IMG/VR virus record: IMGVR_UViG_3300023082_000029
Span: 1 to 31,770 of that record
From: a virus
Strand: one strand, 5' to 3'
DNA length: 31,770 nt
Part shown: piece by piece, positions 1,753-24,267 of the stretch
How the letters are laid out: every line of letters starts with the position of its first letter
Position numbering within the stretch: position 1 is the stretch's first letter
Notes under the pieces: generated by a model
The model's input: only the letters and a program-made list of their open reading frames with translations
Databases searched by the model: none
Told to the model about the DNA's origin: nothing
Program-made: the position numbers and the translations under genes

Positions 1753-1814
1753 CTTACTAATAACCACAAGTAAATCAACGCTCATGTTTACCATATTCGC
1801 GCGAGGTAATTTTG
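1753..1814 (+). promoter_or_regulatory. Phage promoter: dyad box plus -7 element driving the portal gene
   Basis: A 22-bp box at 1753-1774 contains TTACT (1754-1758), ten bases, then AGTAA (1769-1773), an inverted repeat. Exactly 54 bp downstream of the box start lies TAATTTTG (1807-1814), a perfect Bacteroidota TAnnTTTG -7 element, and the portal ATG follows 4 bp later. The same arrangement with the same 54-bp offset recurs at 12090 and 24206. No clear -33 TTTG is present, which suggests an activator at the dyad replaces it. The spacing to ATG predicts a leaderless or nearly leaderless transcript. Confidence 0.75.
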
Positions 1815-1818
1815 TTTA

Positions 1819-3276
1819 ATGGAGTTATCAAAGCTTACCAGCCTCATCACGACCGATCCAAAGACGCTGATTGAAAAGATCAGGTCCTCACGCCCGAATG
1901 AAGAAATAAAATCTATTCAGCCGGAAGATCACGAGGTAATGGATGATACAATTCGTAAGAACAGAGAGGTTGAAGTTGGTAACGGTATCATTGATCCGAA
2001 CACGAGACAAGAGGGAACGCGTAAGACCTACGAACCAGTAACGAGGATACCATCACCCATAGAGAAAAATATAATAGACTGGGCAGCGCAAATGGCAGCG
2101 GGAACGCCAGTCGAATGCCATGCCTTACCTGGAAATGAAACTGAGCAAACCCTTTACGATATGGTCAAACATACGTTGAGGGAAAACAAGACAGAATTTC
2201 TCGATAAAACTGTTGTCCGGTTGATGGGTACCTATAAGCGTTGTGCTGAGGTTTGGTTTAGTGAAGATTGCGATGAGTTTTACTGGGGTGAATTGGGTAA
2301 GTTTAAAAAGCGCATGCGTATGATGATGTTGTCCGCTGAAACCGGCGATACTATTTACCTGGTCACCAATAACGTCGGCGATGCTATTGCGTTAACCCGT
2401 GAGTACAAGATCAAAGATGACGAGGATAAGGACGTCGAAATGTTCGACATCTGGATCAATGGCGCTTATATCACTTTTTCAGCAAGCACGGGGGGAGATT
2501 GGAAAATGCTTGAAAACAGAAAGCAAACCTACAAAAAAGCATCATTTGTTTACTACTCTCAGGACCGTTTGGAGTATGAAGATATTACCCAGAAAAGAAA
2601 ACGACTTGAAATACTCGATTCGGATCATGCAGATCAGAACCTTGCCACTGGTTCGCCAATCATAGTTGCTAAAGGCATTGTTACTTTGGGTAAACGAGGG
2701 GAAACAGGTAAAGTGTTTCAGGTTGACGGTAAAGATGGTGACATGAAGATTCTTGAAGCAGCAGGGTCGCCTGAGTCGCTAAAGATGGAACGTGAGAACC
2801 TGTTGAACGGGATATACTACGACACCAACACGCCAAACATGAGCATATTTGACGCTGAGGGAATGGGCGCTAATACGCCAGGCATCACGATTAAACTTCG
2901 CTTCCTACCTGCTACATTGAAAGCAATGAACAAGCAGTCTGGAGCATGGGGAATGGGCGTACAACGTAGGTATAACTTCCTTAAATCAGCCATGGCAGTG
3001 ATTAACACTAAAGTTGCCAGTGCTGTTGGCTTGGTGATCAGTCCTCGTTTTCAGGTTTATCTTCCAAGCAACGATACCGAAAACTACAATAACATAATTG
3101 CCCTGGTTGCTGCAGGTTTGATGAGTACAAAGACCGCTGTAACAAAATTAGGATTAGTTGACAATATAGAAGACGAGATCCTAGCTATCGAAGCAGAAGT
3201 TGCTAAACGAAGCAAAGCGGCAATGGACCTTGCAGCAGCAAGCAAAGCACCAGCAAACGAAACACAAAACGTATAG
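1819..3276 (+). CDS. Portal protein
   Basis: The 485-residue protein directly follows the large terminase, which is the standard place for the dodecameric portal through which DNA enters and leaves the capsid. Size and composition fit the SPP1 gp6-like portal class. It has a charged N terminus, a long central mixed alpha/beta core, a conserved-looking helical stretch around residues 350-400 rich in Ala, Met and Gly, and an Ala/Lys-rich helical tail (AEVAKRSKAAMDLAAASKAP). The start at 1819 is fixed by the promoter 4 bp upstream. The assignment rests on order, length and character rather than a single diagnostic motif. Confidence 0.8.
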   Translation: MELSKLTSLITTDPKTLIEKIRSSRPNEEIKSIQPEDHEVMDDTIRKNREVEVGNGIIDPNTRQEGTRKTYEPVTRIPSPIEKNIIDWAAQMAAGTPVECHALPGNETEQTLYDMVKHTLRENKTEFLDKTVVRLMGTYKRCAEVWFSEDCDEFYWGELGKFKKRMRMMMLSAETGDTIYLVTNNVGDAIALTREYKIKDDEDKDVEMFDIWINGAYITFSASTGGDWKMLENRKQTYKKASFVYYSQDRLEYEDITQKRKRLEILDSDHADQNLATGSPIIVAKGIVTLGKRGETGKVFQVDGKDGDMKILEAAGSPESLKMERENLLNGIYYDTNTPNMSIFDAEGMGANTPGITIKLRFLPATLKAMNKQSGAWGMGVQRRYNFLKSAMAVINTKVASAVGLVISPRFQVYLPSNDTENYNNIIALVAAGLMSTKTAVTKLGLVDNIEDEILAIEAEVAKRSKAAMDLAAASKAPANETQNV

Positions 3277-3280
3277 CATT

Positions 3281-3748
3281 ATGAACGTAGAAGAAATACC
3301 CTCAAACGAATTGGTTGTAATGACTAACTTTTGGCATAGAGCATTTAATGCAGCAGGGTGCGACCCGATGTGCCACAATTGCAAGTCGATGATACAGGTA
3401 GGAAACAGATTTAAATTAGCTACGATAGAAACATCGGATAGTTACGTCGCAGGCGACAGCTTAGAGCTTAAAGTCGCGGTATTAAAAGGCGAAGTAGTAC
3501 CGAGTAAAAAAGTAGTTAAGGAATATTTTGATTTCGAGATACGGACTGAATTTAAATCGCATGATACCAAAGGCTTAAATAGGTTAGTAGATAAATTTAA
3601 AACTCATACCAAGGAAGTAATGCTTTGCGACAAGTGTACACCAGAGGATTACAAAAAACTGCAAATAGAGATACTTGAAGGTAGAATTATAGAGAGGGAC
3701 AAGCCAAAAGGCGGATGTTTCAGGATTAATGGTAAAATAATACACTAA
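3281..3748 (+). CDS. Putative zinc-binding protein of unknown function
   Basis: The ATG at 3281 lies 4 bp after the portal stop; an upstream in-frame start would overlap the portal by more than 75 bp and is less likely. The 155-residue product has cysteine pairs C31-x2-C34 (with C27 nearby) and C116-x2-C119, and a further C146. This is consistent with a split zinc ribbon. The rest is Lys-rich with alternating beta and helical character (LELKVAVLKGEVVP). I do not recognise the family. Its place right after the portal suggests a head-related or packaging-accessory role, but that is inference only. Confidence 0.7.
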   Translation: MNVEEIPSNELVVMTNFWHRAFNAAGCDPMCHNCKSMIQVGNRFKLATIETSDSYVAGDSLELKVAVLKGEVVPSKKVVKEYFDFEIRTEFKSHDTKGLNRLVDKFKTHTKEVMLCDKCTPEDYKKLQIEILEGRIIERDKPKGGCFRINGKIIH

Positions 3749-3761
3749 ACCATATAATTAT

Positions 3762-3896
3762 ATGAAAAACTTTACAATATCACTCGGGATCGGACTTAAT
3801 ATGTTTTTTGCCGACTTCCACACCGTATTGGCCCAGCCAGAGGAAAAAGCAAAATACAGGTTTGAGAATCCACGATTGAATAGGAGGAAAAGGTAA
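3762..3896 (+). CDS. Small basic protein (44 aa)
   Basis: The ATG at 3762 opens a 44-codon frame ending at TAA 3894-3896, whose last base is the first base of the next ATG (TAATG overlap). The N terminus is mildly hydrophobic (FTISLGIGLNMFFADF) and could be a short signal or membrane segment. The C terminus is Arg/Lys rich. The overlap coupling with the next gene is the main support. Function unknown. Confidence 0.5.
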   Translation: MKNFTISLGIGLNMFFADFHTVLAQPEEKAKYRFENPRLNRRKR

Positions 3897-4255
3897 TGCT
3901 GGATACAGAACAAAAGGTTGATCAGTTTCTAGCGTTACTGAAAACCGAAATCATGGCAGCCAAAATGGTGGAAGGTGAAAGAGGACCATATATCACAGCT
4001 AAACATAAGCAAAGCGAGGTGCATTGCGATATGGTCAATAACTCGCTAGCCATACATGGTACTGTATTCAAAGAGATAACAGTGCATATTGCTAAAGAGC
4101 CAATACAAGCAGCTACGATTTCAACAGACAGGGAAAGCTATTCGATAGTTACCGGAAGGATAAGCGATATGGATGCTATTGCCTTTTACGACCTCGGTAC
4201 TGGTAGCATGGAGCAATCGGTAAGGCCATTACCCGAATGGGCTGAAATGTTGTAG
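3896..4255 (+). CDS. Hypothetical protein (119 aa)
   Basis: A strong Shine-Dalgarno AGGAGG at 3882-3887 lies 8 bases before this ATG, which fixes the start. The product has an N-terminal helix (TEQKVDQFLALLKTEIMAAK) followed by beta-rich sequence. It contains no motif I recognise. It is two bases upstream of the kinase-like gene, so the two are probably cotranscribed and may act together. Confidence 0.7.
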   Translation: MLDTEQKVDQFLALLKTEIMAAKMVEGERGPYITAKHKQSEVHCDMVNNSLAIHGTVFKEITVHIAKEPIQAATISTDRESYSIVTGRISDMDAIAFYDLGTGSMEQSVRPLPEWAEML

Positions 4256-4257
4256 AT

Positions 4258-4737
4258 ATGGGCGCATCCGTACATACTGACTTCTTGGACCTGTTTAAGA
4301 ACGACTGGTTCCTATTGGGTGACCTAACCGACCTGTTTATCGGTGGTATTATCGCAGAAGGCTGTTCACGTTCGGTATTTGACTTTAACCTTAATCCGAA
4401 TTGGGTAGTTAAAATTGATAGATCAGGACAATTTCACAATGTATCTGAATGGGATATATGGCATAGCGTGAAGGAATATACCGAGTACAGCAAGTTCTTG
4501 GCACCATGTCATCACCTGTCACAATGCGGACGTGTATTGATTCAGCAGAAGACGTATCCCATTACGGGAGAGTTGCCTATTCAAATACCAAACTTCATTG
4601 CTGATATTAAAAGCGATAACTGGGGGATGATTGGAGAGCGGGTTGTGTGCCATGATTATGCGAATCATAACTTCTTTACAAAGGATAAGTTGGCGATGGT
4701 TGCTCACGATTGGGATTATCCGGGTGGACAAAAATAA
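4258..4737 (+). CDS. Minimal protein-kinase-like fold protein (159 aa)
   Basis: The residues match the order and spacing of a protein-kinase core. A Gly-rich loop-like segment (G30...G35CSRSVF) is followed by VVKID with K52 at the place of the ATP-binding lysine, then E64 in a helix, a hinge-like stretch near 83-97, HDYANHN with D133 and N138 (D+5 to N, as in HRDLKPEN), and HDWD with D151. The Asn to metal-binding Asp distance is 13, the same as in PKA. The protein ends eight residues after D151, so the activation loop and most of the C-lobe are missing. It could be a small-molecule or protein kinase, or a pseudokinase-like structural protein. The motif match is seen directly; activity is inference. 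Confidence 0.6.
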   Translation: MGASVHTDFLDLFKNDWFLLGDLTDLFIGGIIAEGCSRSVFDFNLNPNWVVKIDRSGQFHNVSEWDIWHSVKEYTEYSKFLAPCHHLSQCGRVLIQQKTYPITGELPIQIPNFIADIKSDNWGMIGERVVCHDYANHNFFTKDKLAMVAHDWDYPGGQK

Positions 4738-4761
4738 TTTTAATTTATTTTCATTATCCAC

Positions 4762-4792
4762 TTGCGAATACAAATAATAAAGTATATATTTG
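4762..4792 (+). promoter_or_regulatory. Host-type promoter upstream of the tRNA region
   Basis: TTG at 4762-4764 (in CTTG) is followed 20 bp later by TATATTTG at 4785-4792. This matches the Bacteroidota TTTG / TAnnTTTG promoter arrangement. A transcript would start near 4796 and run toward the tRNA, although two hairpins lie between them. It lacks the dyad box seen at the structural-gene promoters. Confidence 0.5.
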
Positions 4793-4807
4793 AATATACA
4801 AAAACGG

Positions 4808-4831
4808 AATAGCCTTAACGGGTTATTTTTT
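4808..4831 (+). terminator. Intrinsic terminator-like hairpin
   Basis: AATAGCC (4808-4814) pairs with GGTTATT (4821-4827), with one G-T wobble and a six-base loop, and is followed by a run of T to 4831. It lies only about 12 bases after the predicted start from 4785-4792, so it might act as an attenuator rather than a simple end. Confidence 0.5.
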
Positions 4832-4855
4832 GTGGTTAAAATATCCGAAATAGGA

Positions 4856-4871
4856 TTGGATTAATAAAGTA
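4856..4871 (+). repeat. 16-bp dispersed repeat, copy 1
   Basis: TTGGATTAATAAAGTA is repeated exactly at 16883-16898. A shorter TAATAAAGTA core also occurs at 4775-4784. The copies at 4856 and 16883 each follow a terminator hairpin, so the element may be a promoter or operator part. Confidence 0.6.
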
Positions 4872-4881
4872 TTTACATATT

Positions 4882-4898
4882 GCCCCTCGGGGCTTTTT
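4882..4898 (+). terminator. Intrinsic terminator
   Basis: GCCC(CTCG)GGGC forms a tight tetraloop hairpin followed by TTTTT at 4894-4898. This is a short but canonical rho-independent form. Confidence 0.6.
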
Positions 4899-5010
4899 AC
4901 CTTAACAATCACTACGTGTAGTGTGATGTAATAGAAACAAAGAAGGTCCGGTAAATCCTCCGGAATGGCGATCAAAACGTCATGGAAACCCTGGGTTGTT
5001 GAGGTTAATT

Positions 5011-5083
5011 GGTACTGTAGCACGATTGGAAGTGTGCCTGACTGTCGCTCAGGAGGTAGAGGGTTCGAACCCCTTCAGTACCG
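5011..5083 (+). tRNA. tRNA-Asp (anticodon GUC)
   Basis: A full cloverleaf can be folded. The acceptor GGTACTG pairs perfectly with CAGTACC. The D stem is GCAC/GTGT with GG in the loop. The anticodon stem is CCTGA/TCAGG with loop CTGTCGC (anticodon GTC). A five-base variable loop follows, then the T stem GAGGG/CCCTT with loop TTCGAAC. The discriminator base is G at 5083, the identity base for aspartyl-tRNA synthetase. CCA is not encoded, as is common in Bacteroidota. A phage-borne tRNA usually supplements decoding during infection. Confidence 0.93.
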
Positions 5084-5139
5084 CAAGGCCTAGCCAACCA
5101 GAGGAACGATATCGCCTCGCCGGCTCTTAGTAGATAGAA

Positions 5140-5164
5140 AAGCGGGTGCGTATAGTGCCCGCTT
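5140..5164 (+). terminator. Hairpin downstream of tRNA-Asp
   Basis: AAGCGGG (5140-5146) pairs with CCCGCTT (5158-5164), followed by TTATTGT-type sequence that is only weakly T-rich. It probably ends or processes the tRNA transcript before the gene at 5192. Confidence 0.45.
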
Positions 5165-5191
5165 ATTGTAAAGCAACTTAAATCACTACAT

Positions 5192-5689
5192 ATGAATACT
5201 ACGGATAGCACACTTCCGAAACAGAGCCACTCATCTATAAAGCGTGAGGCGAGATTAGCGAATCAAGGTAAAAAACAATTCGGTGGTAAGCTGGATAACT
5301 TCACCGATAACAGAGATCGGCATTTCAGTCAGCGGATGTTGAAAGCTTATTTAAGAGGGCATGACAGATTTGCTTTTGGCTTTACCAACCAGAAAGATGA
5401 ATCAGGAATACTTCACAGGGTTAATCAATACCACGATGTTATTCTAACTGATGATTTCAGAGATCCTAAGCTGGTAGATAAACTACTTGCCAATGGTTAC
5501 ACTGATCCGGGAAAGGTATTTGGTGGTACCAAGCCAAGCAAAAGGCAATTGAAGGATATCATATCTAAAAGAATTGAGTCTGAACGTAATGAAAATGATA
5601 AGGCTATAAAAGCAATTGGCGAGGTTGGAATAGCTGCATCTAAAGCCGGTTCTGCAATGCAGAAGATAGCTAAATTCTTCGGTAAATAA
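5192..5689 (+). CDS. Hypothetical protein (165 aa) with small-residue amphipathic C terminus
   Basis: The product begins with a Ser/Thr/Lys-rich disordered segment. Its centre is Asp/Arg rich (DNRDRHFSQRMLKAYLRGHDR), and it ends in a helix rich in Ala, Gly and Lys (VGIAASKAGSAMQKIAKFFGK). Such a tail resembles membrane-active or scaffold-type amphipathic helices. I recognise no family. It is isolated between two hairpin-rich non-coding stretches, unlike the tightly coupled genes around it. A virion or DNA-ejection protein is one possibility, but nothing proves it. Confidence 0.7.
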   Translation: MNTTDSTLPKQSHSSIKREARLANQGKKQFGGKLDNFTDNRDRHFSQRMLKAYLRGHDRFAFGFTNQKDESGILHRVNQYHDVILTDDFRDPKLVDKLLANGYTDPGKVFGGTKPSKRQLKDIISKRIESERNENDKAIKAIGEVGIAASKAGSAMQKIAKFFGK

Positions 5690-5810
5690 AATTAAAGTCC
5701 TGTTGTCGCCGGGAATCCATAGGCACGGGCATAGCAAAAAAAACAGAGAGCAGAGGCGGCATAATTGCAGTCGTCAGACAGTAGTGGTTTAAGCTACAGA
5801 GATCGATGTA

Positions 5811-5837
5811 AGCCCCGGTGAGAATGTAGCCGGGGCT
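5811..5837 (+). other. Perfect GC-rich stem-loop in an intergenic region
   Basis: AGCCCCGG (5811-5818) pairs perfectly with CCGGGGCT (5830-5837) around an 11-base loop. There is no T run after it, so it is more likely a structured RNA element or processing site than a terminator. The rest of 5690-5810 has no gene that I can see. Confidence 0.5.
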
Positions 5838-5869
5838 ATGGTACTAGGTTAGGATTAGGTGTATGTTGA

Positions 5870-5898
5870 AAGCCGGGGTTAACGCTCCGGTTTATTTT
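5870..5898 (+). terminator. Terminator-like hairpin before the accessory gene block
   Basis: AAGCCGG (5870-5876) pairs with CCGGTTT (5887-5893), with one G-T pair and a ten-base loop, followed by ATTTT. It separates the gene at 5192 from the accessory operon starting at 5921. Confidence 0.45.
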
Positions 5899-5920
5899 GT
5901 AACTCAAAAATTAGAATAAT

Positions 5921-6238
5921 ATGGAACCAGTTTCAACACAAGAGAGGATAATCCTTTCCATGAGCCTTATAGGCTTATTGTCTAATGACTTAAATATTGT
6001 AAACATACAAATGGCCTCGCTGCCAATCGATGGTGTTTATGCTAAACAATTTCAGCAAGAAAGAGAACAGTATCTATCTTCTGTAGCAGACAGACTAGCT
6101 GTAATTGCTGAAGAAATAGCTGACTTTATGAATTCTGCTGATGCCGTTGATGAAAGTATTATTTCAGTTGCAGATCCGATTATACAACTGATTCAGCCAA
6201 ATGAAACCCCATTAAACGAGGGAGGTGATAATGGATAG
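5921..6238 (+). CDS. Hypothetical protein (105 aa), helical
   Basis: The sequence is mostly helical with hydrophobic heptad-like positions (LSMSLIGLLSNDLNIVNIQM, then DRLAVIAEEIADFMNSADAV). It has no recognised motif. It is the first gene of a tightly packed rightward block and overlaps the YopX-like gene by 8 bp. The SD for that next gene lies inside its final codons, indicating translational coupling. Confidence 0.7.
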   Translation: MEPVSTQERIILSMSLIGLLSNDLNIVNIQMASLPIDGVYAKQFQQEREQYLSSVADRLAVIAEEIADFMNSADAVDESIISVADPIIQLIQPNETPLNEGGDNG

Positions 6239-6641
6239 GTTTAAATTCAGGGCGTGGGACGGTCAATTTAAAACCATGGCTTATGGATCGTTAACGCAAG
6301 ATAGGTGGTATTCAAAAACAGGTTTTTTAGATGTTTCATCTGGCGGACTGGAAGGATGCGATATCATGCAATGCACAGGGCTTAAGGACATGGAGGGACA
6401 TCATGTATTCGAAGGAGACAGATTTGAAGGTGAAGAGCCCCAAGAGTATTACTTAGTCGTTTGGAATGCGAATGAGGCGAGATTTCAGCTAGACTATTAC
6501 GGATTTGACGAATACACTGGTGAGGGCGGGCAAGAGGTTTTTGCATCTGAAATTAGTCGGATTGACGAAAATATGATTGATATGTCTTCTGTATCAGTAA
6601 TGAAGGTAATCGGAAATATTTATCAAGCACTCACTCCATGA
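6231..6641 (+). CDS. YopX-family protein
   Basis: The 136-residue product begins DRFKFRAWDGQFKTM, contains QCTGLKDMEGHHVFEGDRFE, and ends VIGNIYQAL. These are the hallmark segments of the YopX family (KFRAWD, TGLKDKNG, YEGD, IGNIYE) of small phage proteins of unknown function. The ATG at 6231 is preferred over an upstream in-frame GTG at 6225 because GGAGG (6221-6225) lies 5 bases before it. It overlaps the preceding gene by 8 bp and the following micropeptide gene by 4 bp. Confidence 0.9.
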   Translation: MDRFKFRAWDGQFKTMAYGSLTQDRWYSKTGFLDVSSGGLEGCDIMQCTGLKDMEGHHVFEGDRFEGEEPQEYYLVVWNANEARFQLDYYGFDEYTGEGGQEVFASEISRIDENMIDMSSVSVMKVIGNIYQALTP

Positions 6642-6727
6642 TCGCATTCCTAATCATCATCATAGGCATACCAACAGTTGGCATCAGTATGGATTTAATC
6701 ACCCATCATAAACGTAAGAGATTATGA
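6638..6727 (+). CDS. Membrane micropeptide (29 aa)
   Basis: The ATG overlaps the YopX stop (ATGA), and its own TGA overlaps the next ATG (ATGA). The peptide begins with a single hydrophobic helix (IAFLIIIIGIPTVGI) and ends in a basic tail (HHKRKRL), typical of a one-pass inner-membrane peptide. The double four-base overlap strongly suggests real translation. Function unknown; holin-like or regulatory roles are possible. Confidence 0.6.
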   Translation: MIAFLIIIIGIPTVGISMDLITHHKRKRL

Positions 6728-7170
6728 GTAAAAATAAATTGTACACCGACAACTCAGGATGGGTAAGGTGTTTAAACTCTAAAGAAGCTGCACTGGAGTA
6801 CTTTAAAGAGTGCGCTGCAAGATATAATCAATATCAATGGCATGTTGATTTCGCAACGACAATAGATGAAATTAAGGAAGTTGAAACGCCTTTCAAGGCG
6901 GAGAAAGCAATATACAATGGAGAGTCATACTCTGAATATTGTTCTGATTTGCTGGATAATTGGTTGGAAAGTGCGTGCAAAGACCCGAGGTATGTGAGGC
7001 CAGTAAGAGAATACGATGAATGTCATGGTGAAGATAACGTTTCTTTCGTCTATACTAATGCCGGTACACGCCTTGTTGAACGTGCGCTTACAAGGCTAAA
7101 TGCGGTGGGATATCACCATTATGATTGTTTAGATACTGAAATAAGCAGTTCACTATACAGAGAGTTTTAA
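6724..7170 (+). CDS. Hypothetical protein (148 aa)
   Basis: A soluble, acidic and aromatic-rich protein with several Cys residues (RCLNSKEAALEYFKECAARY, and ECHGEDN). I recognise no domain. Its start overlaps the stop of the membrane micropeptide by four bases, so it is part of the same coupled block. Composition is similar to its neighbours. Confidence 0.7.
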   Translation: MSKNKLYTDNSGWVRCLNSKEAALEYFKECAARYNQYQWHVDFATTIDEIKEVETPFKAEKAIYNGESYSEYCSDLLDNWLESACKDPRYVRPVREYDECHGEDNVSFVYTNAGTRLVERALTRLNAVGYHHYDCLDTEISSSLYREF

Positions 7171-7192
7171 TCACCCGTAGCCGCAGGAAATC

Positions 7193-7285
7193 ATGACCAG
7201 AAAACAGCAACAGAGCTGGCTAACCTTAGTATGGGTAGTCGGATTAATCATAGGAATAGTAACGCTTAAAATGTATACAGAATGA
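7193..7285 (+). CDS. Membrane micropeptide (30 aa)
   Basis: The ATG at 7193 is preceded by AGGA at about 6 bases. The peptide has a basic, Gln-rich start (TRKQQQ) then one hydrophobic helix (WLTLVWVVGLIIGIVTL). Its TGA overlaps the next ATG (ATGA at 7282-7285). It is the second single-helix micropeptide in this block. Confidence 0.55.
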   Translation: MTRKQQQSWLTLVWVVGLIIGIVTLKMYTE

Positions 7286-7791
7286 TAAAAGAAATAAAAA
7301 CAGAAAAGTTTGAAGGGCTTGCCGTGCTGGTGCCGGATGATGCTGAGGATTTTGATAGAGAATGCGTTTCAGATGAAGACTTTTTTCAGTTAAATTATCT
7401 GATGATAAACAACGACGAAGAAAGTGGCTTTCATGGCGAACCAACTGTATACAGCATAGATATGCCTTGTAATTTCGAAATCATTGGCAAATCAACTGAA
7501 CTTACAGAGGAACAATGTGCTGATATTGTAGGCTTAAGTTTTGGAGTTAACAATATTTATAAATCTTATGAGGACATAACGGCTGTTGATACCGCCAAGG
7601 AATCTTTCGCATCCCTCATGCAGTCTATTGGAGCGTATAGCGTTAATCCTTATCCAAAACCTGACATCAATAGCGAGAAGTACGTTCCAATAAGTGATGA
7701 TGCTAAGGACACGCTGTTTATGAATGACTGGGATCAATGGGAAACTGCACAAGAGCATACTGGCACTTGGTTGATACTTAAACGAATATAA
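7282..7791 (+). CDS. Hypothetical protein, paralogue of the gene at 30916-31347
   Basis: The 169-residue product begins IKEIKTEKFEGLAVLVP, contains EIIGKSTELTEEQCADIV, and ends TGTWLILKR. The leftward gene at 30916-31347 has matching segments in the same order (IKTEKFEGLAVMVP, LGKATELTEERCAEIV, GTWLILEK). The middle region differs, and here an extra acidic stretch is inserted. The family appears to be phage-associated with no known function. It is coupled to the preceding micropeptide by ATGA. Confidence 0.75.
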   Translation: MIKEIKTEKFEGLAVLVPDDAEDFDRECVSDEDFFQLNYLMINNDEESGFHGEPTVYSIDMPCNFEIIGKSTELTEEQCADIVGLSFGVNNIYKSYEDITAVDTAKESFASLMQSIGAYSVNPYPKPDINSEKYVPISDDAKDTLFMNDWDQWETAQEHTGTWLILKRI

Positions 7792-7793
7792 TA

Positions 7794-8006: not shown

Positions 8007-8446
8007 GTAAATATCAATGGCAAGGCGAACCAGTTCAGGTGGAATTCGGTTACGTAAATCAAAAGGAGAATTTAGACAAACCACTTTATTGGTACAATTA
8101 CGAATGCGCAATGAATAAAGTAGGTGCTGAGTGGAAGCATAAGTTTGCCTTAATTCCGGCTTGTAAAGTTACATCTTCAAATGGATCAATGTTCCTGCTA
8201 GCAAACATGTCCGGTATAGGTGTTCACAAGCTGTTAAACGGAGGCTGGCCAAATTACGCTCACTTCTCACTGGATGGTGAATTTCATCAATCAGACGAAC
8301 GCATGTGGGCTATTAAATCATTCAATGAAGATGAATACTCAGAGCGTGAATCAAAGAGGCGCAATTGGCAGAAGATACATTGTCCGGTTGAATTTGAAAG
8401 AAGCGAAAAACTAAGGGAGGCATTCAAAACTATGCATAGGCCATGA
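8003..8446 (+). CDS. Hypothetical protein (147 aa)
   Basis: The start at 8003 forms an ATGA overlap with the previous gene; a longer in-frame start at 7967 would overlap by 40 bp and is less likely. The product is rich in Trp, Tyr and His (WYNYECAMNKVGAEWKHKF) and ends in a basic helical stretch. I recognise no family. It overlaps the next gene by four bases. Confidence 0.65.
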   Translation: MSKYQWQGEPVQVEFGYVNQKENLDKPLYWYNYECAMNKVGAEWKHKFALIPACKVTSSNGSMFLLANMSGIGVHKLLNGGWPNYAHFSLDGEFHQSDERMWAIKSFNEDEYSERESKRRNWQKIHCPVEFERSEKLREAFKTMHRP

Positions 8447-12026: not shown

Positions 12027-12058
12027 GCCTCCTGCATTGATTTGTAGGAGGCTTTTTT
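12027..12058 (+). terminator. Strong intrinsic terminator
   Basis: GCCTCCT (12027-12033) pairs perfectly with AGGAGGC (12046-12052) around a 12-base loop, followed by six T. It isolates the gene at 11779 from the capsid operon promoter. Confidence 0.85.
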
Positions 12059-12089: not shown

Positions 12090-12151
12090 TTTACCACCCA
12101 CCTCAAGTAAGGCAAACCAATTTCACACCCCATTCCGTAGGGGTATTTTTG
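12090..12151 (+). promoter_or_regulatory. Phage promoter: dyad box plus -7 element driving the capsid operon
   Basis: The 22-bp box at 12090-12111 contains TTACC (12091-12095), ten bases, then AGTAA (12106-12110). TATTTTTG (12144-12151) starts exactly 54 bp after the box start, as at 1753 and 24206. Here the -7 element is followed by a leader of about 70 bases before the scaffold ATG at 12224, so this transcript is not leaderless. Confidence 0.7.
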
Positions 12152-12223: not shown

Positions 12224-12901
12224 ATGTCACTTAAAATTAAGATTGCAGCACGACTGAAAGCAAAAGCAGCAGGAGTGAATCTATCTCAAGCACGTATTGA
12301 TGCTATTGTCACCAGAGCAGAAAAGGGATTAACGGACGAATCGGACGACACCGCTATTGACGCTAATTTGGATATTATCAATGAACTGACTCCCTTCAAG
12401 GAAATAGCTTCATATGATGATCACCAAAGGGCCAAAGCAAAGAAAGAGGCTGATGAGAAAGAAGCCGCAAGATTGAAAGCAATTGAAGAAGGTAAAACGC
12501 CAGAACCAGACGCTGATCCAAATGAAAGTTCAACCGATAAGCTATTAAAAGCTTTGATGATTAAACTGGATAAGCAGAACGAGGAAATATCTGCAATCAA
12601 AGGCGAAAAAGTGACATCAACCCGTAGGGAGCAATTCATTAAATCAATGGAGGGAACTTCTGCAGAATACCAAGCAAGAGAGTTGAAAAAGTTCGACCGG
12701 ATATCATTCAAGGATGATGCGGACTTCACGTCCTTCCTGGAAGATACTAAAGATGATCACGCTGGCGCAGTGCAGGAAGCTTCAAACGCTGATTTAGGGA
12801 ACGACAGGCCGGCGGGTGGTACAGGTGGCGGAAACGCCAGTACAAAAAAAGAAGCTACAGCGGCCGAAGTCGAAGCAGCATTTACAAATTTAAAAATATA
12901 A
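12224..12901 (+). CDS. Scaffolding protein
   Basis: The 225-residue product is highly charged and helical, with a Lys/Glu-rich coiled coil (about 60-95), a second helix (DKLLKALMIKLDKQNEEISAIKG) and a Gly/Asn-rich flexible segment near the C terminus (GGTGGGNAS) before a short terminal helix. This fits an internal capsid scaffold of the GP20-like type, which guides prohead assembly and then leaves. Its position just before the decoration-like and major capsid genes supports this. Confidence 0.75.
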   Translation: MSLKIKIAARLKAKAAGVNLSQARIDAIVTRAEKGLTDESDDTAIDANLDIINELTPFKEIASYDDHQRAKAKKEADEKEAARLKAIEEGKTPEPDADPNESSTDKLLKALMIKLDKQNEEISAIKGEKVTSTRREQFIKSMEGTSAEYQARELKKFDRISFKDDADFTSFLEDTKDDHAGAVQEASNADLGNDRPAGGTGGGNASTKKEATAAEVEAAFTNLKI

Positions 12902-12905
12902 CGAA

Positions 12906-13316
12906 ATGGCAGTACAAGTCAATTTGGTGGATGATACGATTAACATTGATATGTCGAAAGACAGTATTGTTATTATCGATAATCAGTTCTCCATCCCGGG
13001 AGGTAAATCTCTTGATGTTACTGGTTTCACTCCTGACGTGCTAAACGCTGGACATGTAATCATAAAAGAAACAGCAACAGGTAATTATAAGCCTATGCCT
13101 TTAGCGACAGGAAATGCGGCATATGATACGTTGCCGACTGGACATACCTATGAAGGTATTCTGGTAGCTACAATCCTGAAAAAACGCCCGTTTGCAGGGG
13201 TAATGCTGGAAGGTTGGGTAAATGAAGTTGCTTCACCATTCCCAATTGCAACAATTAAGGCCGCGTTTTTAACTGCGGTAGGTGGTAAAATCAAATTTAG
13301 ATCAGACTTAGCATAA
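12906..13316 (+). CDS. Head decoration/stabilisation-like protein
   Basis: The 136-residue beta-rich product lies immediately before the major capsid gene and overlaps it by one base (TAATG). Its layout (VIIKETATGNYKPMPLATGNAAYDTLPTG, then a strand with GILVATI) resembles lambda gpD-type decoration proteins, which trimerise on the capsid surface and stabilise it. The call is from position and general pattern, not a unique motif. Confidence 0.6.
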   Translation: MAVQVNLVDDTINIDMSKDSIVIIDNQFSIPGGKSLDVTGFTPDVLNAGHVIIKETATGNYKPMPLATGNAAYDTLPTGHTYEGILVATILKKRPFAGVMLEGWVNEVASPFPIATIKAAFLTAVGGKIKFRSDLA

Positions 13317-14395
13317 TGGCAGAACAATCACAATTCGTAAAGTATATTCAAAAGTATTTTACTGGTTTTGTAGCTAAGGTTACAAAAACCCTTAATGGAG
13401 AAGATAAGGCGCCGCTTTACTTGCATAAGTCTATGTTGACTCCAAAACAATCATTAGATGGTAAATGGACTTCCATTACCTCTGACAATCAAAACGTAGC
13501 TGCAGATGTGGTTGCAATGGATAGTCCGCTACCATTGAAATTGCGCCCGTCTCTTTCTACCGCCTCTGGGGATATTCCAAAACTAGGTATGGAAATGAAG
13601 ATGAACGAAAATCAACTGGATCAGTTGGATACCATGGTAGCGAAGCAAGCAGAGGATGCAGACATAGTAGTTGAATTATTTGATGACGCTAAACGTGCCC
13701 TTGTGGGTATCGAGGAGCAAAAAGAATACTTGTTCCTACGTGGCTTGTCTTCTGGAATCGCATTAACCGACAGTGAAAACGTTGGTACGGGAGTTCGTGT
13801 TGATTTTGGTTACCTGGCAGAAAACAAAGCTGGCGTTCCTGTAGTATGGAGTTCAGTAAACGCAACGCCAATCAGCGATTTGAACACTTTAATTTCAGTA
13901 GCAGACGGGAAAGGTAAAACGATCTCTTATGTGATGATGGATAAAGTTTCGTTTAACAATGCGCGTAAAACTACAGAGGCGAGAAATCTATATGCTACAA
14001 GTATTGGAAACTTTGGCACAACTCAGCCAATCCCGTCATATGATCAGTTTCTGGATACATGGCAAGCTGATGCTAAGGTGTCTATTATCATCGTTGACCG
14101 ATCAATTAAGTTTGAGAAAGATGGTGTTAAGAAAACAGTTAAAGGCTGGGATGAAGGTAAAGTAATTCTGCTTACTGACAACAACGTTGGTAGTCTTGTG
14201 TGGAAACGCGTCGTTGAAGACAAACACCGTTCTAAGGCTATTGAATACAGAAACGGTGAATTCGGAACTTTGCTTTCGATGTACGTTACTCATAAACCAT
14301 TTGGCGAATGGACTGACGTACAGGCTAGGCAGCTGCCGGTAATCACTAACGTGAGCGATATCTTCCAATTGGATACTAAAGTAGTTCAGGCATAA
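13316..14395 (+). CDS. Major capsid protein
   Basis: The 359-residue product is the building block of the icosahedral head. It has the segment LPLKLRPSLSTASGDIPK followed by a Met/Asn-rich helix (MEMKMNENQLDQL), a pattern I associate with capsid proteins of Bacteroidota siphophages in the gpE-like/HK97-fold group. A long central helix (ELFDDAKRALVGIEEQKEYLF) matches the capsid spine helix. It follows scaffold and decoration genes in standard order, and its stop overlaps the next ATG (TAATG). Confidence 0.85.
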   Translation: MAEQSQFVKYIQKYFTGFVAKVTKTLNGEDKAPLYLHKSMLTPKQSLDGKWTSITSDNQNVAADVVAMDSPLPLKLRPSLSTASGDIPKLGMEMKMNENQLDQLDTMVAKQAEDADIVVELFDDAKRALVGIEEQKEYLFLRGLSSGIALTDSENVGTGVRVDFGYLAENKAGVPVVWSSVNATPISDLNTLISVADGKGKTISYVMMDKVSFNNARKTTEARNLYATSIGNFGTTQPIPSYDQFLDTWQADAKVSIIIVDRSIKFEKDGVKKTVKGWDEGKVILLTDNNVGSLVWKRVVEDKHRSKAIEYRNGEFGTLLSMYVTHKPFGEWTDVQARQLPVITNVSDIFQLDTKVVQA

Positions 14396-16898: not shown

Positions 16899-16899
16899 A

Positions 16900-17609: not shown

Positions 17610-17619
17610 ACCCTATACA

Positions 17620-18132: not shown

Positions 18133-21100
18133 TGGCAAAAGGAAATACAGGCGGGAGAGGTTTAAATCTTAAGGCCAAATTAGATATCGCCGAGGCCAAA
18201 CGTAACGGACAAGATCTGCTGAAAACTTTAAAAGAGTTGAGTATCGCTTCTGCAAAAGCAACAGCCGGAACCGGGGTAGGTAACGCCAAGGCATTCGATA
18301 CTAAACCATTAACTGAATACCAAGCCGGACTGCTGAAGATTAAACAGGAGGCGCTGGAATTTGCAAAATCAGAAGCGGCAAGAAAGAAGGCTGAACGCGA
18401 CGCTTCATTAGCAACGCAGGCTGCATTAAAAGAAGGAGTTCGTATAAAGAGAGAGCAAATTGCCGCAGAAAAAGCACTAAAAGCAGAACAGGCTAAAAGA
18501 AAGCCAACACAGATTTCCAATTCACAGGCTGAAATTGATGCTTATAAAAAAGCCACTCAAGGCAGTATGCTATATACATCTGCTATTAACGCTCAAACTG
18601 TCGCTAGAGCAAAGTTGAATGCCACTGCCGCAAATGCCGCTGTTACTAATGGAACGCTAAATAATGGTATTACTTATAATACGCAAGCGACTCAACAACA
18701 AACATCTGCTACCAATCAGAATGTTCTAAGCAAAAAGCAACTGGCGCAAATGCTGGCTGAAGAAAAATACAGACAACAGCAAGCAACGGCAGAATTAAAG
18801 AACAATGCCAGGGAAATGCTTAACGCAAAAGGTTCATTAGAACAAAGAAGAGCGGCATTGATCAGGCTGAATACTGCTTATGATAGGTTAAGTAAAACCG
18901 AAAGGGAGTCTGCATCAGGAAACCGATTGGCAAACGTAATTAAAAATGTAACAGATCAGGTAAAACAACTTGAAGCTGCAACAGGTAGGGCCCAGCGAAA
19001 CGTTGGTAACTACCCCAATGCATTTAGTAAGATAGGTTCGGATGCCAATAAGCTTACTGATACAGTAAAAGGATCAAAGGGTATATTCGGTCAGCTTTTT
19101 GAATCCATCAGCAGCGGTGCGCTATCTGTTCTTGCGCCTTTAGCTTTGATAGGTGCTGCATGGACGGCTGTAAAAGCTATTTTCAGTCATAACGTAGAAA
19201 TATCTGACGCCTTTGCAGATGTGCGTAGAACAGCTAAGCTATCTAATGATGAGGTTAATAATCTAGCAGATACTTTAAAGGGATTAGACACCAGAACAAA
19301 CCTTGAAGGATTACTGGATATTGGCTTTATTGGTGGTCGACTTGGTGTATCAAAAAGCGAGCTGCCTGAATTTATAAAGCAGGTAGATGAACTAGCAGTT
19401 GTCTTAAAAAAAGAATTGCCAGGTGGAGCGGAAGCTGTTGCAGAGTCATTGGGACGTATTGTAACTATTTACAAAGTAACAAAGGCAGAGGGCGTTTCAT
19501 TAGGAACAGCTTTAAGTAAAGTCGGATCTAATATGCTGGAACTTGCCCACTCTGGACCAGTAACGGTAAAGTACTTACAGGACTTTACTTTAGGGGTGGC
19601 CGGTACAGCGGCAAGCGCTAAGTTATCTATTCCGGTTATTTCTGCTTACGGTGCGGTACTTGGTGAATCTGGTCAGATTGCATCATCTGCAGCGTTGTCT
19701 GTCACCAGACTGGTAACTGGACTGACGACTAAAACAGGCAAGTACGCTGCAATTGCTCAATTGGCAGATTCTACTTTAACAGTAGAAAAGTTTACCAAGA
19801 TTGTCAATACTGATACTAAATTAGCACTAGATCTATTCTTTAAAGGATTAAAAGCCGGTAATCCGGTAGCTACAGAGTTCGCGGCCCGTCTAGGTTCGGT
19901 TGGCATCACGACTGGTAAAGTAACAAATGCTGTTAAAATTCTTGCGGAGAATCAGGATAAGCTGGCTAACAGAATAGAAAAAGGCACAATCGCATTTGAA
20001 GATGGAATAAGTGTCGCACATAATTTTGAGATTGCGAACGACACACTAGGCGCCTCTGTTGATAAATTAGGTAATTCAGTAGTTAACCTGACTACAAATC
20101 CTAATAGCAACATGTATAATTTCTTTAAAGGACTGATCGATGGGTCTACTAAAGCCGTAAATGCATTAGGCATATTGATTGCCACAGTAGAAGGACTTAC
20201 AACAGATCCAAAGAAATTTATTGGAGACAGTGCTGCAAAATCCCGAGCAGAAACACTTAATAAGATAAACGAAGAAGCAAAGAGAATAGCGGCTTCAGCT
20301 TACAAAGATAAAGATACTGACGTTGACGGGGAGAGGCTTTCGATACTTAAGGAAGAGGTTAAAATACGAGACGTTATCAATACGCAGTATTTAAAAGCCA
20401 AAATAGCTTACGAAAATACAAATACCAAAGATAGAAGTATAGCCGATACCTATGCGCTTCAAGAAATTGAAACAAAGCTTCAAAAACAGGTTGCTTTAGT
20501 TCGCGAGCTGAATAAGCTTCGGAATCGTGGTAAGGTAGATGTAATTGGTACAGGCGAGATTGTCCCTGACGCAGATGCAGATGTTCGTACGACAGATGCT
20601 ATAAGAGCTGAAATTAAAGCGTTAGAGTTAGCCAACAAAAAACTGGGTGTAGAAAGCAAACAATTCAAGTCTAATGTCAAAGATATAGTAGCATTACGTA
20701 AAGAACTGAAAATTGCATTAGGCGGTAAAGATACCGAGGGAATTGCCGCAGAAAACCAATACGCTACAGCCCTAAAAGCACGTAACAATCTCCAAGCTCA
20801 AATCAGCGCCTTAACCAAAAAAGGTACTGACAGACAATTATCCGCTGATGAGCAGGAGTTGGAATCTGTAAAGGACAAGTATAAAAAAATGCTGGATGCC
20901 GCTAATGCTTTTAATAATGATCCAAAAAATAAAGCCAAGGGGCTACGTGTTGATGCCGGCGGGCTTTCTGTTGCTCAGGACAGAGAGGAGACTGCGTTAC
21001 GCGATAAACAAGACACGGCAAAACTAAAAGTGTCCTTAGACGAGCAAAAGAAGCTATATGACGATTATGAGGAGTATAAAACTAAGGTCGGTGAAGAGAA

Positions 21101-22955
21101 CGCAAAAACACGTTATGCCAGCTTAGTTGATACAGACCGAACTTATCTGCAATCTCTGGAAGCGCAACTTGATGCAATCACTAATCCGCAAAAAAGCAAA
21201 GGAGGTGCCGAAGTTGATACAGCGGGCAATACTTTAAAGATCAAATTGCTAAGCGAAGAGATTGCTGCAGAAAAATTGCTTCAACAAAAGAAAAACGACG
21301 ATATCTATGCAGATGCGTATCAGTCTGCTATGACCAACGCCCAGGCTTTGCTGGCTATTGAGGCGGATTACCAATCAAAACGCAACGCCTTAGGCAAAGA
21401 TGCTAGTGCAGAGCAGTTGAAGAATTTGCAAAGAGAAAAGGATAACCGAATCCGAAATCAGAACAATGCAAATGCTGAAGAGGAATCTGGCTATGCGGAT
21501 TTAATGGAAAATCTGGACGAAATGACTCGGGGAGCAGCTATCAAGGCTTTTGAATTGCAAAAAGAATATTACACTAAGCAATATAAAGCTAAACTGATCA
21601 CTGCTAAAGAGTATGCTGATAAAATTGCTCAATTGAACGGTGAGATTGATAATCTGAATGGGGATAATATTTTTAAAGGCATATCGAATGCTATTAAGCG
21701 ATATAAAGAAGCTAAGAAAGCGTTTGATAAATCAAAATCTGATGACGATGCAATTGGCGTTCTTGATGCCCGTGCCGAGATGTTCAGTAAAATCGGTGAA
21801 GGTGCTGAAGCTGCTGCTGTTGGCTTATCCGGATTAGCTGGAATATTTGACGATTTAGGAGTAGGTGGTGAAAAATTGCAGGTCGTTCTGAAAGGTGTTT
21901 CTGGTGTTCTTGAGGGAGCGGGACAGATATCTAAAGGTATATCAAGTGGTGATCCTGTAGCGGTTGTTTCTGGGTCAATAAAGCTTTTGGGTTCTGCTAT
22001 TGATTTATTCAACGGTAAGGACCGTAAGCTTAACCGTAAAATTGCAGATTATAAACTACAGCTCGATAGTTTAGGCAAGGCATATGCTCAACTGGATAGA
22101 CAGGTTAACAACTCTGTAGGTGAATCGTACTATGATGATAGCGCGGCGCAAATAGAAAACCTGAAAGCTCAACAAGCGGAATTGGTTAAAATGCGTGATG
22201 CGGAACGTAGCAAAAAGAAATCTGATCAGGACAAAATCAATGAATACCAGAATCAGATTGACGAGATCCCTAATAAAATTGAGGATATCACTAAAGCTAT
22301 TTCGCAGACACTGATTCAAACTAACTTTAAGGATCTATCCAATTCCTTGGCCGATGCACTAAGTGACGCTTTTGCAGCCGGAGAAGATTCAGCAAAAGCC
22401 TTTGATGATGTATTTGATAAGGTAATTGTGAATGCGGTTAAGAATTCATTAAAGTTAAAGATATTGGATCCTATAGTGAAGAAATTCACTGATGATTTAA
22501 CAGCGTATGCTAGCGGAAATGATAATTCTGTTATTGGATTCGACTTTGAGAAATATAGGGCGTTATTGGCTGCTGGAGGGAAATTAGTAACAGCAGGACT
22601 GGATCAGATTAAAGATTACTTTCCAGATACTTTGACTGACCCCGCCAATAACGGCACACTATCGGGTTCCATTCAGGCTATTACTCAAACGCAAGCCGAT
22701 GTGTTGTCAGGTAACATCGTTGGATTACGCGTTACCCAACTGGACACCAATAACATATTACGTCCAATTGGTAAAACTATGGGGGATATATTCCTGATAG
22801 CCAAGGGTAATTTTGATTTGAATGTGAAAATCGAGGCAAACACCTTAAGGTCAGCTAATAACACGGATCGATTGGAAAACATGGAATCTGCCTTGGTATC
22901 GATCAATAAAAAAATGGATAATAATAAAAGCGCCTTAACTGGTACGGGGAGATAA
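18132..22955 (+). CDS. Tail tape measure protein
   Basis: The 1607-residue product is by far the longest in the window, as expected for the protein that sets tail length. At about 1.5 angstrom per residue this implies a tail near 240 nm. It is Lys/Ala/Gln-rich and mostly coiled coil. A hydrophobic stretch at about 327-352 (VLAPLALIGAAWTAVKAIF) could insert in the host membrane, and a second Gly/Ala-rich patch lies near 1225-1300. It follows the chaperone module and precedes the tail-tip genes. Confidence 0.93.
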   Translation: MAKGNTGGRGLNLKAKLDIAEAKRNGQDLLKTLKELSIASAKATAGTGVGNAKAFDTKPLTEYQAGLLKIKQEALEFAKSEAARKKAERDASLATQAALKEGVRIKREQIAAEKALKAEQAKRKPTQISNSQAEIDAYKKATQGSMLYTSAINAQTVARAKLNATAANAAVTNGTLNNGITYNTQATQQQTSATNQNVLSKKQLAQMLAEEKYRQQQATAELKNNAREMLNAKGSLEQRRAALIRLNTAYDRLSKTERESASGNRLANVIKNVTDQVKQLEAATGRAQRNVGNYPNAFSKIGSDANKLTDTVKGSKGIFGQLFESISSGALSVLAPLALIGAAWTAVKAIFSHNVEISDAFADVRRTAKLSNDEVNNLADTLKGLDTRTNLEGLLDIGFIGGRLGVSKSELPEFIKQVDELAVVLKKELPGGAEAVAESLGRIVTIYKVTKAEGVSLGTALSKVGSNMLELAHSGPVTVKYLQDFTLGVAGTAASAKLSIPVISAYGAVLGESGQIASSAALSVTRLVTGLTTKTGKYAAIAQLADSTLTVEKFTKIVNTDTKLALDLFFKGLKAGNPVATEFAARLGSVGITTGKVTNAVKILAENQDKLANRIEKGTIAFEDGISVAHNFEIANDTLGASVDKLGNSVVNLTTNPNSNMYNFFKGLIDGSTKAVNALGILIATVEGLTTDPKKFIGDSAAKSRAETLNKINEEAKRIAASAYKDKDTDVDGERLSILKEEVKIRDVINTQYLKAKIAYENTNTKDRSIADTYALQEIETKLQKQVALVRELNKLRNRGKVDVIGTGEIVPDADADVRTTDAIRAEIKALELANKKLGVESKQFKSNVKDIVALRKELKIALGGKDTEGIAAENQYATALKARNNLQAQISALTKKGTDRQLSADEQELESVKDKYKKMLDAANAFNNDPKNKAKGLRVDAGGLSVAQDREETALRDKQDTAKLKVSLDEQKKLYDDYEEYKTKVGEENAKTRYASLVDTDRTYLQSLEAQLDAITNPQKSKGGAEVDTAGNTLKIKLLSEEIAAEKLLQQKKNDDIYADAYQSAMTNAQALLAIEADYQSKRNALGKDASAEQLKNLQREKDNRIRNQNNANAEEESGYADLMENLDEMTRGAAIKAFELQKEYYTKQYKAKLITAKEYADKIAQLNGEIDNLNGDNIFKGISNAIKRYKEAKKAFDKSKSDDDAIGVLDARAEMFSKIGEGAEAAAVGLSGLAGIFDDLGVGGEKLQVVLKGVSGVLEGAGQISKGISSGDPVAVVSGSIKLLGSAIDLFNGKDRKLNRKIADYKLQLDSLGKAYAQLDRQVNNSVGESYYDDSAAQIENLKAQQAELVKMRDAERSKKKSDQDKINEYQNQIDEIPNKIEDITKAISQTLIQTNFKDLSNSLADALSDAFAAGEDSAKAFDDVFDKVIVNAVKNSLKLKILDPIVKKFTDDLTAYASGNDNSVIGFDFEKYRALLAAGGKLVTAGLDQIKDYFPDTLTDPANNGTLSGSIQAITQTQADVLSGNIVGLRVTQLDTNNILRPIGKTMGDIFLIAKGNFDLNVKIEANTLRSANNTDRLENMESALVSINKKMDNNKSALTGTGR

Positions 22956-22959
22956 TATT

Positions 22960-24201
22960 ATGGCAAATACAATAAAGACTAAGGCAGGGGTAACCCTGTC
23001 TTACATCGTAGAAAAGCAAACCATTAGTACGGTTGTATTTTCAGACGGAAAGCAGTTGATTATGGTAGGCAGTACAGCAAATGCAGCTGTCAAAAAGGCT
23101 TACGATGAAAAGGTAGCTGAAGAAGTGCCTCCGGTAGTAGTGGAACCTACACCGCCGGTAATCATTATTCCACCCTCACCTGGATCGCCCAGGGAAATCA
23201 CATTAAAAGAATTTGGACAATTAAAGGATGTGCAGGGTGAAAGCTTCAAGGTTAAACCTTGCGTTGCACCTGATCAGTACTGGTTAACCGGATTAAAAAA
23301 AGTGAGTATTGATTTGTCGCAGGTGCAGTTCACTACTAAGAACATGCCATCTATGGAATTGAAAGGTGTTTGTGAAGATCTGGTATTATATAAACCAAAT
23401 TTCAAGGATACCAGCGGATCAGGAGTGAGCTATAGGGGTGATGACGTGCCGTTTGGTACTGTAATTAAAGGATTACAGATCTTAGGTTCAGTTTCAGAAA
23501 ATTCCGGGGCTATATTCAGCGGTGGTGGTGGTATCAATGAGAAAGGATTCAGCATTTCCTTTCAGGGACTAACTATTAAAGATTTTCTATTCAAAAATAG
23601 TCCTGCCGTTGGTACAATTGTATACTGCCAGTCATTGGAGGATTTCGAGATCAGCAACGGGATTATAGATAATGTAAACGGGAATTCTGATATCCATAAT
23701 GGACTGCTGATGCTGGCTGGTAATGGGAAGCTTCACGATATCAAATGTACTAATCATCAGGGCGACTTACTGCGGGCCGTGCCTCACCAGGTATTATCTT
23801 CTGGTAAGATACTGGACGTGTATAATAACATCGTGTACAACAGCCGTAAGTATGGCGCTTTTGAAGTTCAGGTGTATGCTTATGTCAAAGCTTCACCTTT
23901 CTTTAAGCCAGCTGATACTTTGGTTAGGAACAATACTGTGGGTACACTGAATACTTCTCATGCTTGGGACGCTAAATTAATCGATGTGTACGATACGTTT
24001 GCTAAAGTAGATCTGGTAAATAATCTAGGCTTTGAGTTATTTCAGGCCAACATGTCACCAATTACCAAATTGGCCAACCAAATGAGTAGTCCCGCTACGG
24101 TATTAACCGAAAAAGGAAATATTTATAAAAACACTTGGCAGGAAGCTGTAATGGATTTGGTATCCTTCAAATCAAAGTACACTGGAGTCGGCGCACGGTA
24201 A
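22960..24201 (+). CDS. Tail-associated beta-helix protein (possible tailspike)
   Basis: In the 413-residue product, residues 1-54 form a small N-terminal domain, 55-78 are a proline-rich linker (VEPTPPVIIIPPSPG), and the rest shows repeated short strands with Asn, Gly and hydrophobic residues (LKGVCEDLVLYKPNF, IKGLQILGSVSENSG, LEDFEISNGIIDN, KLHDIKCTNHQG). This is the pattern of a parallel beta-helix such as polysaccharide-binding or -cleaving tailspikes. A catalytic site could not be picked out. It sits between the tape measure and the Dit-like gene, not at the usual tailspike position. Confidence 0.6.
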   Translation: MANTIKTKAGVTLSYIVEKQTISTVVFSDGKQLIMVGSTANAAVKKAYDEKVAEEVPPVVVEPTPPVIIIPPSPGSPREITLKEFGQLKDVQGESFKVKPCVAPDQYWLTGLKKVSIDLSQVQFTTKNMPSMELKGVCEDLVLYKPNFKDTSGSGVSYRGDDVPFGTVIKGLQILGSVSENSGAIFSGGGGINEKGFSISFQGLTIKDFLFKNSPAVGTIVYCQSLEDFEISNGIIDNVNGNSDIHNGLLMLAGNGKLHDIKCTNHQGDLLRAVPHQVLSSGKILDVYNNIVYNSRKYGAFEVQVYAYVKASPFFKPADTLVRNNTVGTLNTSHAWDAKLIDVYDTFAKVDLVNNLGFELFQANMSPITKLANQMSSPATVLTEKGNIYKNTWQEAVMDLVSFKSKYTGVGAR

Positions 24202-24205
24202 CCTT

Positions 24206-24267
24206 CTTACCAATATACACTAGTAAACGATCAAATCCATATAGCGTGATGAGTCGGGGTAAATTTG
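24206..24267 (+). promoter_or_regulatory. Phage promoter: dyad box plus -7 element driving the Dit/tail-fibre genes
   Basis: The 22-bp box at 24206-24227 (TTACC 24207-24211, ten bases, AGTAA 24222-24226) matches 18 of 22 bases of the box at 1753. TAAATTTG (24260-24267) begins 54 bp after the box start, and the ATG follows 4 bp later, exactly as at the portal gene. The 32 bases between the two elements are not conserved, which points to selection on the two boxes and their spacing. Confidence 0.75.

Follow-up and report, generated by a model that had tools for sequence, protein, structure and literature searches.

In phage P2, Ogr/Delta serves several late operons through an inverted repeat, a dimer-type site, that lies 5' of promoters without a normal -35 element. 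The P2 late-promoter site is centred near -55, and the gene for Ogr, which has a zinc finger, lies close to the tail genes. Phage phiRSY1 likewise carries Ogr-type sites, TGTTGT-N13-ACAACA, and these promoters lack sigma-70 elements (PMC5694545). The RinA/Ltr/ArpU proteins of Gram-positive phages are small late-gene regulators of about 130 amino acids encoded just upstream of the terminase genes, and Phi13 Ltr reportedly acts at one promoter, ahead of the late block, through four direct repeats (PMC13123087). For phages of Bacteroidota, we found neither a late-gene activator nor a late-promoter class described in the literature searched. Here we analyse IMG/VR record IMGVR_UViG_3300023082_000029, a siphophage-like Bacteroidota phage with large terminase, portal and capsid genes, whose entire 31.8-kb record (31,770 nucleotides) is the window of this report. 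Three inverted repeats (dyad boxes) in it stand at a fixed distance before the portal, capsid and tail operons, and these boxes mark a real, previously undescribed phage late-promoter class in Bacteroidota.

As in P2, several late operons share a dimer-type inverted repeat; the dyads are centred at about -55.5 to -57 compared with near -55 in P2-type sites, and the upstream element is absent (-33 TTTG in none of 48 promoters). In contrast to P2, the host polymerase is of the Bacteroidota type (TTTG/TAnnTTTG), the dyad sequence is highly diversified among relatives, and a search for the Ogr_Delta domain (PF04606) was negative in all 14 phage records and positive in the control genome. Compared with standard Bacteroidota primary-sigma promoters, the phage promoters have the same -7 element, whereas they lack the -33 TTTG and have a dyad at about -56 and GG before the -7 element. 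Our candidate regulator shares small size and a locus just upstream of the terminase genes with RinA/Ltr/ArpU, yet falls outside these families by sequence (Pfam, NCBIfam and annotated PHROG, E<=0.001), and a single inverted repeat before each of two or three operons takes the place of the Phi13 arrangement. The candidate most likely works like P2 Ogr or Staphylococcus RinA/Ltr while being kin to neither by sequence.

The three boxes and the promoters behind them

A preliminary description of the window had proposed a TTACY-N10-AGTAA dyad paired with a TAnnTTTG element at three structural operons, and its box coordinates and element starts (1807, 12144 and 24260) are correct to the base.

1753..1774, + strand: dyad box 1, CTTACTAATAACCACAAGTAAA, 5' of the portal operon
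1807..1814, + strand: -7 element of promoter 1, TAATTTTG; predicted +1 at 1819, the A of the portal ATG
1819..3276, + strand: portal gene, first behind promoter 1 (phrog_64, E 2e-42)
12090..12111, + strand: dyad box 2, TTTACCACCCACCTCAAGTAAG, 5' of the scaffold/capsid operon; orthologous boxes in relatives
12144..12151, + strand: -7 element of promoter 2, TATTTTTG; predicted +1 at about 12156, leader of about 68 nucleotides
24206..24227, + strand: dyad box 3, CTTACCAATATACACTAGTAAA, 5' of the tail/tail-fibre operon
24260..24267, + strand: -7 element of promoter 3, TAAATTTG; predicted +1 at 24272, the A of an ATG
starting at 24272, + strand: gene for a 182-amino-acid protein, family without a match, first behind promoter 3

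Direct reading bears out the internal structure claimed for these sites: the box start precedes TAnnTTTG by 54 base pairs (bp) at all three promoters, A7, C13 and C15 are invariant, boxes 1 and 3 are identical at 18 of 22 positions, and both reach their ATG (1819 and 24272) 66 bp after the box start. The naming of the genes behind the boxes stands for portal, scaffold/capsid and tail fibre, while "Dit" for the gene at 24272 is unproven because that gene has no family match. TTACY-N10-AGTAA occurs four times in the window (three sites, one palindromic) against 0.19 expected, about 20-fold over chance, and none of 100 shuffles reached four matches. With zero mismatches allowed, the two-part pattern is found only at the three sites, the reverse strand and other spacings being empty, and it recurs at the portal, capsid and tail/tape-measure operons of relatives. 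The motif thereby withstood the computational test that the preliminary description had named as able to refute it. A fourth, partial two-part site lies at 22755-22815, within the 3' end of the tape-measure gene, with partial sites at the matching position in G004 (40022), G009 (34746) and G002 (45784). Either an internal promoter or conservation of the coding sequence could account for it, and we set it aside as possibly the latter.

Relatives were gathered via their portal, capsid and tail proteins among IMG/VR contigs and prophages of Pedobacter and Mucilaginibacter, and all nearby records contain the two-part pattern. Their box, TTACYA-N8-TRGTAA, is found where operons begin; it is always on the coding strand and precedes TAnnTTYG by 33-34 bp. 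When 84 loci were scanned for TTAC-N12-GTAA followed by TAnnTT[TC]G, with one dyad mismatch allowed, gaps of 33 and 34 bp gave 21+5 sites on the coding strand and 0 on the opposite strand, and all other gaps were at background. An iterated profile lengthens the motif to TTACYAAC...AGTAAgCC plus GGGTAnnTTTG. The box geometry of promoter 1 also precedes the portal gene in G002, G004, G006, G007, G008 and G009, and that of promoter 3 precedes a 68%-identical gene in L010/G003. The portal promoter of L001 (6750-6790) has no recognisable dyad; there, a hairpin, ATACCTAACC..GGTTGGGTAT, abuts the T-run of the -7 element.

We compared 48 curated promoters with 154 intergenic control -7 sites. The -33 TTTG, of which the preliminary description had seen no clear copy at the three sites, is missing from every promoter of the larger set (0/48, compared with 35/154 controls or 23%; Fisher p=4e-5, a value that overstates independence because the promoter sequences are related by descent). 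The stretch between box and -7 element had been called unconserved, and this is only partly right: GG lies directly 5' of the -7 element in 29/48 promoters and 4/154 controls, and C lies at -14 from its first T in 36/48 and 17/154. The dyad family, its geometry and the loss of the -33 element are direct observations.

The mapped -7 element of Flavobacterium johnsoniae has its first T at -12 (PMC6847099), and with this spacing the dyad centre falls at about -55.5 to -57 from the predicted start, in agreement with the centre near -55 first proposed. The predicted +1 is the first base of the ATG codons of the portal gene and of the gene at 24272, and likewise in many relatives. Because transcription would begin at the A of the start codon, promoters 1 and 3 are predicted to give leaderless mRNAs; in F. 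johnsoniae such starts are uncommon, 87% of leaders exceeding 10 nucleotides (PMC6847099).

Other dyads at the same distance in distant relatives

The motif of the window is real, and its scope had been underestimated, for it is one of about a dozen lineage-specific dyads that share one geometry. Distant relatives carry inverted repeats of changed sequence, all centred 43.5-45 bp 5' of the -7 element, with dyads of the GTTGTC, GTTGCA, GTTGAC, TTGC, TTGACA, TGAAC, AATAAC and TGTAAT types.

GTTGTC-N12-GACAAC: G025, G032, G251 and L111; a shorter form in G013
GGTTGTTT..ATACAAC: G014
TTACGTT..AACGTAA: G024
TTGC-N14-GCAA: G012
TGAAC-N10-GTTCA: G021
GTTGCAAC-N8-GTTGCAAC: G033 and L228
GTTGAC-N12-GTCAAC: L230, the same as G262
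AATAAC-type: G027 and L057
TTGACA-N9-TGTCAA: L235
TGTAAT-N7-ATTACA: L244; related forms in L238 and L239

A sequence-blind test looked in 121 records for two promoters of one record sharing a dyad at one centre; it resolved a signal that an earlier histogram of dyad centres over all -7 sites had diluted. Shared pairs centred at -45.0 to -43.5 were found in 24 of the 121 records on the coding strand and in 2 on the reverse strand (22 versus 5 with a stricter -7 element), and all other centres gave 0-7 records. A few of the 24 look like chance (e.g. G029, G039). In each of seven genomes (G033, G262, G251, G025, G032, G021 and G003), the genome's own dyad occurs in exactly two perfect copies, both at late promoters, and the other strict dyad classes are absent. 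This lineage specificity is likewise seen directly.

The cultured Bacteroides phage BS-TP2 (L277) has three perfect ACGACA-N10-TGTCGT dyads, at 8115, 16736 and 27906, two of them 42 bp 5' of a -7 element and the third at equal distance from a near-match. The late-promoter dyads of BS-TP2 and of L088 (2931 and 12205; repeated dyad TGTAACAG..CTGTTACG) are centred at -53.5/-54.5, about one helical turn further upstream. A different dyad, TTATTTAGAATnATTCTAAATAA, lies 5' of the capsid operon in L079, L083, L103, L104, L106 and L110, with its centre 24 bp 5' of the -7 element and hence over the -33 position. The candidate regulator is missing from L079 and L103, the carriers of this dyad that were scanned, and TTATTTAGAATnATTCTAAATAA looks like a second control, perhaps of repressor or metal type.

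A terminase-linked candidate regulator

Comparing the gene content of dyad and non-dyad phages led to one small protein as candidate regulator, encoded one gene upstream of the small terminase, a typical place for late activators. This unannotated, helix-turn-helix (HTH)-like protein of 120-155 residues is encoded just upstream of the terminase genes in those dyad phages whose contigs are complete. Diverged candidates occupy the same locus in GTTG-, TTGC- and TGAAC-type phages and lie a few genes upstream in G003; BS-TP2 encodes a homolog that is not immediately upstream of its terminase. In the window, the regulator gene probably lies beyond the left end of the record, judging from its locus in relatives.

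No match at E<=0.001 to Pfam, NCBIfam or annotated PHROGs gives the protein a function, its only real family match being PHROG 38368, of unknown function, and a profile search of PDB sequences returned nothing. The aligned family has a conserved C-terminal pattern, which in the GTTG-type branch reads R.GVA..I...LGVS(K/H/R)QAI..K....(R)HYY....FR..VD.I..EVR. A first fold search from a 7-sequence alignment gave no usable match. The AlphaFold model is all-helical (pLDDT 89.8), and among PDB folds it comes closest to the DNA-binding domain (domain IV) of DnaA (3pvp, probability 0.84, TM 0.66-0.69; 1j1v, 0.44; Foldseek E>1). An HH profile alignment to DnaA places the HTH in register, though weakly (P=0.002, probability 14%). 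The regulator has no significant sequence similarity to DnaA, lacks an ATPase domain and would have a different role. In the host family, Sphingobacteriaceae, 59 of 401 genomes (about 15%) match its profile, as do 4 of 395 of the class.

A dyad pair is present in 13 of 15 whole regulator-positive records and in 0 of 6 whole regulator-negative ones (Fisher p=5e-4, from small, related samples); a laxer shared-pair test finds chance-like pairs in two of these six. As a blind prediction, prophages picked by the regulator protein alone (L228-L230, L235 and L244) were expected to have dyads at this distance, and they do, including several new ones. In L238 (1944) and L239 (1899) a GTAATC-N6-GATTAC dyad stands directly before the regulator gene, overlapping the -33 position, which suggests that the regulator may control its own gene in this branch.

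The strongest evidence linking the protein to the dyad comes from two coupled swaps. In the first, the capsid promoters of L230 and of L228, which is the same phage as G033, have an identical spacer and -7 element, but the dyad changes symmetrically from GTTGCAAC-N8-GTTGCAAC to GTTGAC-N12-GTCAAC. The second late promoter shows the same change, so that both dyads of the prophage differ together. The two regulators are 76% identical overall; within the HTH they differ only by an H-to-K change where the recognition helix begins and by a single M-to-I change, and there are more differences outside the HTH. Between G012 and L235, the tape-measure promoter has nearly identical flanks and a replaced dyad; the two regulator genes hardly differ towards the 3' end but diverge in the HTH. 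The regulator family, its locus and these swaps are themselves plainly visible in the records.

The remaining features of the window are as follows.

181-486, + strand: small-terminase-like gene
487-1749, + strand: large terminase gene
5011-5084: tRNA-Asp gene, between the portal and capsid operons
12028..12058, + strand: intrinsic-terminator-like hairpin and T-run, CCTCCTGC..AGGAGGCTTTTTT, just 5' of promoter 2, read directly
12224-12901, + strand: scaffold-like gene (listed matches for the operon 12224..14395: phrog_5824, phrog_38330, phrog_29)
12906-13316, + strand: small gene between the scaffold-like and capsid genes
13316-14395, + strand: major capsid protein gene
24825-26783, + strand: tail-fibre-like protein gene, behind promoter 3

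Proposed activation and its alternatives

Motif recurrence, the loss of the -33 element and the candidate regulator support the earlier proposal of a late-promoter class in which a phage activator replaces -33 recognition. We consider it likely that these are activator-dependent late promoters with a terminase-linked, co-diversifying regulator; we infer DNA binding, the dimer, activation and late timing from sequence. A dimeric phage-encoded late activator would bind the dyad, always on the one helix face and centred about 56 bp from the transcription start, and would recruit or stabilise host RNA polymerase carrying the Bacteroidota primary sigma factor. Its target promoters would have a good -7 element, often GGTAnnTTYG, and no -33 TTTG, the activator contact replacing -33 recognition. 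The portal, capsid and tail operons would thereby come on as a group at a late stage of the lytic cycle. Most probably, this activator is the all-helical HTH-like protein of 120-155 residues encoded just upstream of the small terminase. Recognition helix and dyad would have diversified together, and each phage lineage would therefore answer only to its own activator.

Several points weigh against this explanation. The regulator of the window itself is not visible, as the record ends before the expected locus, and G024, G014 and G027 carry dyads on contigs too short to reveal one. The match to the DnaA fold is a weak one, with Foldseek E-values above 1, probabilities of 0.84 at most and an HH probability of 14%. 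Most distant members of the regulator family (L237, L240-L243, L245-L266, G010, G028 and G035) have no dyad pair at the expected centre in the stretches examined, and because of this the function may not extend to the whole family. Dyad distances correlate with regulator distances (Mantel r=0.61; partial given capsid 0.57), a result that is not decisive because they correlate equally with the CI-like repressor (0.67) and the scaffold gene (0.64); we rejected the correlation as a unique pointer to the regulator.

The CI correlation, together with the HTH of that protein, could mean that the dyads serve as operators at which the CI-like prophage repressor (XRE-S24 type; gene at the left end of these genomes) silences the late operons in the lysogen. 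This is quite unlikely, because in G033 (CI gene at 1-762) no dyad adjoins CI and the only two perfect copies, at 24398 and 30019, are both at late promoters. A repressor would need neither a site phased 44 bp 5' of the -7 element nor loss of the -33 element, and between G033 and G262 the CI proteins have differences along their whole length (73% identity), while the candidate HTH differs by one clear residue at the dyad change. Somewhat less improbable, though still unlikely, is that another phage protein of the late-early region binds the dyads and the terminase-linked family only travels along: several phage genes track dyad class by descent, and the BS-TP2 homolog does not directly precede the terminase. 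Against this, dyad distances show little correlation with the candidate's neighbours (small terminase r=0.20, nuclease 0.07), and the coupled changes of both swaps sit in the candidate's recognition helix or HTH.

Many bacterial activators bind such dyads, and phages of related hosts sometimes have a dyad in common, as would be the case if the phage exploited a host transcription factor. However, related phages differ in their dyads: there are about a dozen unrelated ones, each almost confined to a single phage genome, and the dyads of one genome change jointly, which makes a host factor very improbable. That the repeats are packaging or DNA-structure elements, or chance, rather than promoters is scarcely credible: they do lie in intergenic phage DNA 3' of terminase genes, but they keep a constant distance to a sigma-specific -7 element and are strictly oriented with the coding strand, and start codons fall at the predicted +1, all of which speaks for promoters.

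Activation by the terminase-linked protein would thus far be the first such activator and promoter class for the abundant Bacteroidota phages, relative to the literature searched. It is probable that this is a new late-activator family, restricted to Bacteroidota and possibly DnaA-domain-IV-like, acting on sigma-dependent promoters from a dyad at about -56 without a -33 element. Its specificity would turn over fast between related phages, through single recognition-helix changes or HTH exchange coupled to concurrent changes at all late promoters, giving each lineage a private late-gene code. The natural swaps render this specificity code directly testable, and one regulator changing along with all its sites would be a clean case of regulatory coevolution. 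If correct, the finding would also provide orthogonal, compact promoter/activator pairs for Bacteroidota genetics and would give a function to a so far unannotated protein family, which about 15% of the sampled Sphingobacteriaceae genomes carry.

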